A stretch of 64,000 bases of DNA from assembly GCA_014193315.1 (NCBI GenBank), contig BJHS01000007.1, positions 1 through 64,000 of the forward strand, written 5' to 3'. How positions within the stretch are numbered: the first letter of the stretch is position 1; every line of letters begins with the position of its first letter. The translations under genes and the position numbers were made by a program. Positions 34,954 to 36,615 of this stretch are shown here, piece by piece. This stretch comes from Verrucomicrobiota bacterium. GTDB lineage: Bacteria > Verrucomicrobiota > Verrucomicrobiia > Opitutales > UBA953. Below the pieces are notes generated by a model that made no database searches, was not told the DNA's origin, and saw nothing but the letters and a program-made list of their open reading frames with translations.

Positions 34954-35472
34954 ATGCCCCGACTCACGCGCCGCGACCTCGCCGTCGCCTCCCTCACGCT
35001 GGCCACCGCCTTCGCCCTGTTGGGGGCGACGACCTTCACGCCGGTCAAGCCCAAGCTCGAAATCACGCCATCCAAGAACCCCGCCCTCAGCTCGGCCGCC
35101 TTCGATTGGGAGAAGTTGACGGTCAAATCGACCAAGGTCGGGGCCGTCCGTAAGGTCTGCCAAGGGCCGACGGCCACCTTGGATGAACTGGAGATTCACA
35201 TCACCACCTTGAACAAAGGCGAGGCCGCCCACGCCGCGCATGCGCATGCGGACGAGGAGCTGCTCATCGTCAAGGAGGGTACGGTCGAGGCCCTGGTCAA
35301 CGCCGAGTGGGTCAAACTCGGGCCGGGCTCGGTCATCTTCCAGGCTTCGTGCATCGATCACGCAATCCGGAACGCCGGCGAAACGCCCGCCACCTACCAC
35401 GTGATCAAGTGGAACTCGCCCGGCATGCTCAAGCAGCTCGCCGAGGCCAAGGCCGCCGCGGCGGCGAAGTAG
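34954..35472 (+). CDS. Cupin-domain protein with Tat-like signal
   Basis: The 172-residue protein begins MPRLTRRDLAVASLTLATAFALLG, a twin-arginine-like signal. A single cupin barrel follows: HAAHAHADEELLIVKEGTVEALVNAEWVKLGPGSVIFQASCIDHAIRNAGETPATYHVIKW. The HxH...E...H ligands are visible (HAHADEE, then H in DHAIRN). Such secreted cupins bind metals and often act on sugars, but no substrate can be named. It is separated from the convergent glnB by a strong terminator hairpin. Confidence 0.85.
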   Translation: MPRLTRRDLAVASLTLATAFALLGATTFTPVKPKLEITPSKNPALSSAAFDWEKLTVKSTKVGAVRKVCQGPTATLDELEIHITTLNKGEAAHAAHAHADEELLIVKEGTVEALVNAEWVKLGPGSVIFQASCIDHAIRNAGETPATYHVIKWNSPGMLKQLAEAKAAAAAK

Positions 35473-35484
35473 GGGCCGGCCAAC

Positions 35485-35516
35485 AAAAAGGGCGACCCTT
35501 GAGGGCCGCCCTTTTT
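35485..35516. terminator. Bidirectional intrinsic terminator
   Basis: AAAAAGGGCG (35485-35494) and CGCCCTTTTT (35507-35516) form a 10-bp stem. It continues as CCC/GGG around a TTGA loop after one mismatch. The A-run and T-run make it usable in both directions: for the cupin gene (stop at 35472) and for glnB (stop at 35536). Confidence 0.88.
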
Positions 35517-35535
35517 CGGGGGAACGGGGGACGCC

Positions 35536-35895
<360 letters not shown>

Positions 35896-35924
35896 TTAGG
35901 CGTTCGGTTGAGCAAGTCCACTTA

Positions 35925-35941
35925 TGCACCCCCCGTGCCAA
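35925..35941 (-). promoter_or_regulatory. Sigma-54 (-24/-12) promoter of glnB
   Basis: Read on the minus strand the sequence is TTGGCACGGGGGGTGCA. The -24 element TTGGCACG matches the sigma-54 consensus exactly. The -12 element is GTGCA, and GG and GC are spaced by exactly 10 bases. Transcription would start near 35914, about 40 bases before the glnB ATG. This is the best regulatory match in the window. It predicts activation by an NtrC-type enhancer-binding protein; its binding sites cannot be placed. Confidence 0.75.
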
Positions 35942-35964
35942 GTCACTTGAGGGGGGGTGGAAGT

Positions 35965-36615
35965 TTACGATTGTCTAGTTTTGAGCAAGGCCTCGCTCAC
36001 GGCGGCCATTTTTTCAGCAGATTTGAGTCCGGGGGCGAGTTCAATGCCGCTATTCAAGTCCAGGAAGCGCGCTCCCGTCTGGTAGGCATCGCTGACGTTG
36101 GCGGGACCCAGCCCCCCAGCGAGGATCCAAACCTGACTTGGGTGGCTTGTCTGCAGGCTTTGGAAGCGTTTCCAGTCCCCCGTCTTCCCGGTGCCGCCGA
36201 AGGCTTGGCGGGAGTGGGCATCATGGAGGAAGGTTTTGCTAAAATTGAGCAGTTCCGCGGGAAAGGGGGCGCCATCGGCGAGTTTGGGGGCCAACCAAAG
36301 CCGGTCCGGCCCGGCTATCGCGGCGATTCTCGGGAGGTCGCAAGTCGCGACCTGCGGGTCGAAGTGCGCCTGCACAATCGCAAACCCCTCGGCGAACAGG
36401 CCACGCACTTCATCCGCCGTCGGGTTGACCATCACGGCCACGCGCGCGGCGGCCGGAATCTCGCGGAGCAAGCTCGGTCGACGTTCCGCGGCCACGTGGC
36501 GAGGTGACCCCGGCCAGACGTTGACGCCCAGGAAGTCGGCCCCGCTGGCAAGCATCACGGCAGCATCGGCGGCGCGGGTGATCCCGCAGACCTTGATGGT
36601 GACCTCGCCAATCAT
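35965..36615 (-). CDS. trpF: Phosphoribosylanthranilate isomerase
   Basis: The 216-residue TIM-barrel enzyme of tryptophan synthesis converts N-(5-phosphoribosyl)anthranilate to CdRP. It has the catalytic Cys in IKVCGITR (Cys10), LAGGLGPANV (phosphate-binding) and DLNSGIE with the catalytic Asp near the C-terminus. No other trp gene is in the window. Its start overlaps the hemD stop (ATGA), making it the third gene of a hemC-hemD-trpF coupled unit. This mixes haem and tryptophan synthesis, an unusual but clear linkage. Confidence 0.95.
   Translation of the reverse strand: MIGEVTIKVCGITRAADAAVMLASGADFLGVNVWPGSPRHVAAERRPSLLREIPAAARVAVMVNPTADEVRGLFAEGFAIVQAHFDPQVATCDLPRIAAIAGPDRLWLAPKLADGAPFPAELLNFSKTFLHDAHSRQAFGGTGKTGDWKRFQSLQTSHPSQVWILAGGLGPANVSDAYQTGARFLDLNSGIELAPGLKSAEKMAAVSEALLKTRQS

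Follow-up and report, generated by a model that had tools for sequence, protein, structure and literature searches.

Nitrogen control by NtrBC and RpoN in Escherichia coli (glnALG, glnK-amtB) combines RpoN-dependent -24/-12 promoters and an upstream palindromic TGC...GCA box with an activator built of receiver, AAA+ and Fis domains, and its targets encode P-II, an ammonium transporter and glutamine synthetase. The NtrC gene itself also stands under a sigma-54 promoter, that of glnALG. In the sigma-54 consensus, a GG and a GC lie ten bases apart within TGGCAC-N5-TTGC-like elements, and transcription starts 12 nt after the C of the -12 element. The E. coli NtrC box, TGCACCAnnnTGGTGCA, spans 17 bp and reads TGC-N11-GCA in the accessible text of its description (PMC8743547).

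For Verrucomicrobia or Opitutales, a literature search, covering its sources in part, returned no promoter-level work on sigma-54/NtrC nitrogen control; within that coverage, the nearest published work is a transcriptome of the verrucomicrobium Methylacidiphilum fumariolicum SolV (PMC3404531). According to the accessible parts of that paper, strain SolV carries glnB, amtB, glnD, ntrB and several ntrC-family genes, and in N2-fixing cells amtB is up three- to fourfold and ntrB, ntrC and glnD show no significant difference. The same parts mention sigma-54 control once, by way of a review, and give no promoter or operator sequences (PMC3404531).

Here, we analyze a 64-kb stretch of verrucomicrobial DNA, hereafter the window, together with the 2.36-Mb, 97% complete genome that contains it (G000). 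A sequence-only reading of the window had noticed a near-perfect sigma-54 site upstream of the P-II gene glnB. We consider it likely that this site is a working promoter, one of five in a dedicated sigma-54/NtrC-type nitrogen regulon with a self-activating activator. This predicted circuit as a whole, in which five putative promoters share a variant operator and the activator seemingly drives itself, is in our view a more interesting result than the single promoter. The upstream operators, the promoter of a type III glutamine synthetase gene (GSIII) and the activator's own promoter go beyond what the earlier reading had spotted.

The putative glnB promoter element and its conservation

The locus comprises the following features:

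35536..35874, minus strand: glnB, the single P-II gene, 112 aa (PF00543, 115.7 bits; the genome's only match)
35914, minus strand: predicted glnB start (+12 rule), followed by a 40-nt CA-rich leader, 35875..35914
35925..35941, minus strand: -24/-12 element of the putative glnB promoter, TTGGCACGGGGGGTGCA (minus-strand letters of 35941-35925), its core found in all five nearest relatives
35965..36615, minus strand: trpF, the upstream gene, whose 3' end carries the operators (an open reading frame, named from its translation)
35971..35988, minus strand: main glnB operator, TTGCTCAAAACTAGACAA, within the final trpF codons and 47 bp upstream of the -24/-12 element
36003..36020, minus strand: possible second operator of lower strength, CTGCTGAAAAAATGGCCG, within the trpF gene (consensus score 16, matrix rank 25)

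With its GG at 35939-35938 and its GC at 35927-35926, the element has the exact GG-N10-GC spacing, and 50 nt separate it from the glnB ATG at 35874. Spacing, distance and the core kept in all five relatives bear out the earlier observation of a near-perfect site, and counting 12 nt from the -12 C leads to the same predicted start, near 35914, that had been proposed before. The leader (35875-35914) has no visible Shine-Dalgarno sequence.

Within the window, the glnB site is the sole match to TGGCACN6TGCA without mismatches. With two mismatches allowed, the window holds 49 matches versus 52 expected, which is chance level, and the strict pattern TGGCACN6TGCW is not enriched in the 2.36-Mb genome, where it matches 10 times versus 21 times for the reversed control. 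The string alone is therefore not significant and proves little; the significance of the glnB site derives from its position and conservation. Scored with -24/-12 weights of our own making, which are built around the consensus given above, it reaches 24.5, and about 0.5% of 120-nt single-strand tiles from the part of the genome analyzed reach 22.

The nearest glnB relatives (L008-L012) are 92-97% identical and come from metagenome-derived genomes that carry the label Opitutae or Opitutales, several of them apparently from lakes. In an alignment of the window with these five, the element is better conserved in position than the DNA around it: TTGGCAC and TGCATAAG are invariant in all six sequences and the glnB leader is also well kept, whereas the bases from the trpF stop to the -24 element are scrambled. 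The strong conservation of the CA-rich leader extends across the clade.

A broader survey covered the 250 bp upstream of glnB at 63 Verrucomicrobiota loci, the five near ones and 58 others, with a threshold of 22. On the sense strand, this score is reached at 5/5 near and 14/58 other loci, compared with 0/5 and 1/58 on the antisense strand and shuffle means of 0.05 and 0.45, respectively; in other phyla, 12 of 17 glnB upstream regions reach it. As the remaining 44 of the 58 have no site within these 250 bp, sigma-54 control of glnB would be common, but not universal. Comparing the presence of rpoN with that of the site across genomes showed no contrast, since almost all of them (46/50) have rpoN.

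Five putative nitrogen promoters and a shared palindrome

The sequence-only reading had described glnB as a solitary P-II gene without amtB. The P-II gene is indeed single-copy and no amtB lies in its neighbourhood, but two tandem genes, amtB1 and amtB2, are found on another contig. Both are preceded by their own sigma-54 sites, which makes glnB part of a regulon. Three of the ten strict genome matches lie in the right orientation before nitrogen genes, namely glnB, amtB1 and GSIII, which encodes a protein of 718 aa. The match at C10:57961, which extends over the probable start codon of gnd, was taken as chance, and the other six lie inside or beside genes without a visible nitrogen link. Comparison of homologous upstream regions in the five relatives, with any base allowed after TGC, yielded further sites before amtB2 and before the gene of an enhancer-binding protein, bEBP1. 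Across the six genomes, TGGCA, TGC and their spacing are kept in 29/29 promoters (six each of glnB, amtB2, GSIII and bEBP1, and five of amtB1, leaving out that of G003, where the match covered residues 201-441 only), and the GG-GC spacing within TGGCAC-N5-TTGC-like elements holds for all of these sites as it does for the glnB site of the window. Two of the 29 score below 22, the bEBP1 site and the GSIII site (21) of G005.

Upstream of the core, the regulon genes carry a palindrome of the form TGC-N10-GCA, which we refer to as the operator. At glnB, it has counterparts at -47 in all five relatives, with scores of 15-19; it keeps fixed distances from the -24/-12 element, namely -47 at glnB, about -80 at amtB2, about -110 and -91 at amtB1, and -68 and -48 at GSIII. 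In two of five genomes the best consensus score of the amtB1 operator is only 15, a value reached in 7.4% of 250-bp background tiles (17 is reached in 0.6%). The consensus, TTGCT..AAAA..RGCAA, was first picked by eye from these same promoters, and for a held-out test we therefore trained a matrix on 22 sites chosen by hand in G001-G005, excluding glnB and G000. Among the 63,983 window positions, this matrix gives the top rank to the glnB operator (35971-35988). A scan of 163,362 positions in G000 places, in this order, amtB1, amtB2, bEBP1, GSIII, glnB, C10:79349 and amtB1 at the top, where glnB is the only true hold-out by gene and the other top sites are orthologues of training sites.

Because the final trpF codons contain the glnB operator, its conservation may in part reflect coding constraint, which could also account for the possible second operator, CTGCTGAAAAAATGGCCG. 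At amtB1, the two upstream operators extend into the beginning of a divergently oriented reading frame; those of amtB2, GSIII and bEBP1 are apparently intergenic. Genome-wide, the strict operator pattern is not enriched, with two matches (amtB2 and C10:79349) versus two for the reversed control. The operator is absent from most other Verrucomicrobiota glnB loci searched, and is thus either a feature of the clade or fast-evolving.

Three further occurrences deserve mention. The top match of the 163-kb scan (L101 7553-7570) overlaps the amtB1 -24 element, where an operator could act as a brake at high activator level. An operator-like TTGCCCAAAAACCTGCAA at C10:79349-79366 of G000 (L103 9350-9367) stands before a ccsB-like gene, with hemA and the gene of a second enhancer-binding protein, bEBP2, following on the same strand; L103 has no -24/-12 site scoring at least 22. 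Finally, an operator-like TTGACCAATTACTGGCAG (L152 4806-4823, matrix score 14) is found about 94 bp upstream of the start of glnD.

Counted by the +12 rule, the predicted leaders measure 36-42 nt at glnB, 15-33 nt at GSIII and 1-4 nt at amtB1, amtB2 and bEBP1 (17/17 cases). Judged by eye, alternative start codons would hardly fit, given where the receiver domain and the signal peptides begin. If true, three of the five regulon messages would be practically leaderless. Somewhat short of even confidence, we extend this to the conjecture that the clade uses sigma-54 mainly for a compact, self-igniting nitrogen regulon with an operator shortened by 1 bp, in which the activator and both amtB genes would be effectively leaderless and translated independently of a Shine-Dalgarno sequence.

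Candidate activator, kinase and competing explanations

The RpoN/NtrC-like circuit predicted earlier, against which a genome devoid of rpoN would have spoken, gains support from the shared cores at five nitrogen genes and from the gene content: there is one copy of rpoN (L001; TIGR02395, 339.5 bits versus a cut-off of 277.35) and there are two strong AAA+ enhancer-binding proteins, bEBP1 (L002) and bEBP2 (L003). Each of the five relatives likewise has two strong PF00158 matches. bEBP1 consists of a receiver (PF00072), a sigma-54 AAA+ (PF00158) and a Fis domain (PF02954). Its score against the NtrC equivalog TIGR01818, 481.9 bits, is below the cut-off of 558.6, and we therefore call it NtrC-like rather than NtrC; a PDB search confirmed the NtrC-family fold and yielded nothing further. 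In all six genomes, the bEBP1 gene has its own -24/-12 site with an operator lying some 70 bp further upstream, and its start region overlaps another, less strong operator-like site. Such an arrangement would be expected of a regulator of this regulon that activates itself. bEBP1 apparently switches on the whole regulon, its own gene included.

No NtrB kinase was seen by eye within about 6 kb of bEBP1. Five HisKA kinases are encoded in the genome, two of them with HEIRNP motifs (L146, L149). The latter, a GAF-GAF-HisKA protein with the motif HEIRNPL (L152:5436-7154), is separated by one gene from glnD, whose product scores above its curated cut-off; the kinase itself reaches 81.3 bits versus the NR(II) cut-off of 240 bits. 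By inference only, L149 is our favoured bEBP1 partner.

From the computed motifs, positions, conservation and gene content, we infer how RpoN and bEBP1 binding, kinase partner, uridylylation signal, start sites and nitrogen response might be connected. Under nitrogen shortage, GlnD would uridylylate P-II, and the HEIRNPL-type histidine kinase would phosphorylate bEBP1. About 47-111 bp upstream of the -24 element, dimers of bEBP1 would then bind a palindrome resembling TTGCTTAAATTTAAGCAA (TGC-N10-GCA) and loop to the RpoN polymerase, whereupon the promoter would open. By activating its own gene, bEBP1 would create a positive feedback.

The sigma-54 promoters could also be real with bEBP2, or both proteins, as activator and the palindrome serving another regulator. 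That both proteins are kept in the five relatives, and that an operator-like site stands before the ccsB-like gene upstream of hemA and bEBP2, would fit such an arrangement, which we nevertheless regard as improbable: the strongest conserved operator next to an enhancer-binding protein gene, combined with a -24/-12 site, is that of bEBP1 in 6/6 genomes, whereas the bEBP2 loci, downstream of hemA, have no operator of that strength in the flanks examined.

Upstream of glnB and in its orientation, hemC, hemD and trpF (named from their translations) are separated by short gaps, an arrangement in which read-through, or else a sigma-70 promoter, might be the main source of glnB transcripts and the sigma-54 site a minor one. 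We think this unlikely, since the 90-bp gap between trpF and glnB contains the conserved promoter core and leader, and a search of 35500-36300 yielded no sigma-70 consensus, although the promoters of this phylum may differ from it. Known RNA elements have no Rfam match above the gathering score in 35400-36300. At the end of glnB, a sub-threshold suhB/mmgR match on the minus strand (35475-35551; E 0.0072, 25.4 bits, gathering score 41) looks by eye like a terminator hairpin with a T-run.

Lastly, it is hardly conceivable, and already largely refuted, that the glnB site arose by chance or forms the G-run half of a terminator hairpin of trpF: strict matches are not enriched genome-wide (10 versus 21) and a C-run does face the G-run in the source genome, but this C-run is not kept in the relatives, where the GG and GC elements remain, and chance is ruled out by the conserved core, the 14/58 versus 1/58 antisense sites and the recurrence at five nitrogen genes. 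All in all, the glnB motif looks like a genuine nitrogen-starvation promoter.

Comparison with known nitrogen circuits

In place of a guess about one site, there is thereby a testable model of a circuit with five promoters for uncultured freshwater bacteria, in which a probable activator, the operator that it would read and its feedback loop are named. Judged by its sequences, this circuit is a variant of a well-known kind. Like the E. coli system, it has -24/-12 promoters of the RpoN type, a palindromic TGC...GCA box upstream of them, a receiver-AAA+-Fis activator, and P-II, ammonium transporter and glutamine synthetase as targets; and like the NtrC gene of E. coli, the activator gene of this clade lies behind a sigma-54 promoter, here a putative one.

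The differences lie in the details. The classical 17-bp TGC-N11-GCA form of the NtrC box is not found in this clade, which has TGC-N10-GCA instead of the spacing given in the accessible text for E. coli (PMC8743547). The regulated synthetase is GSIII here and GSI in E. coli, and the P-II gene lies apart from amtB. The activator gene stands alone with its own predicted promoter, with no NtrB gene recognised by eye in its vicinity, and the leaders predicted at three genes measure 1-4 nt, unlike in E. coli. In M. fumariolicum SolV, glnA is numbered beside glnB in the accessible parts of the paper (PMC3404531), which also differs from the arrangement described here. An operator spacing that differs by 1 bp and nearly absent leaders thus set this nitrogen circuit of a distant phylum apart from the enterobacterial model.
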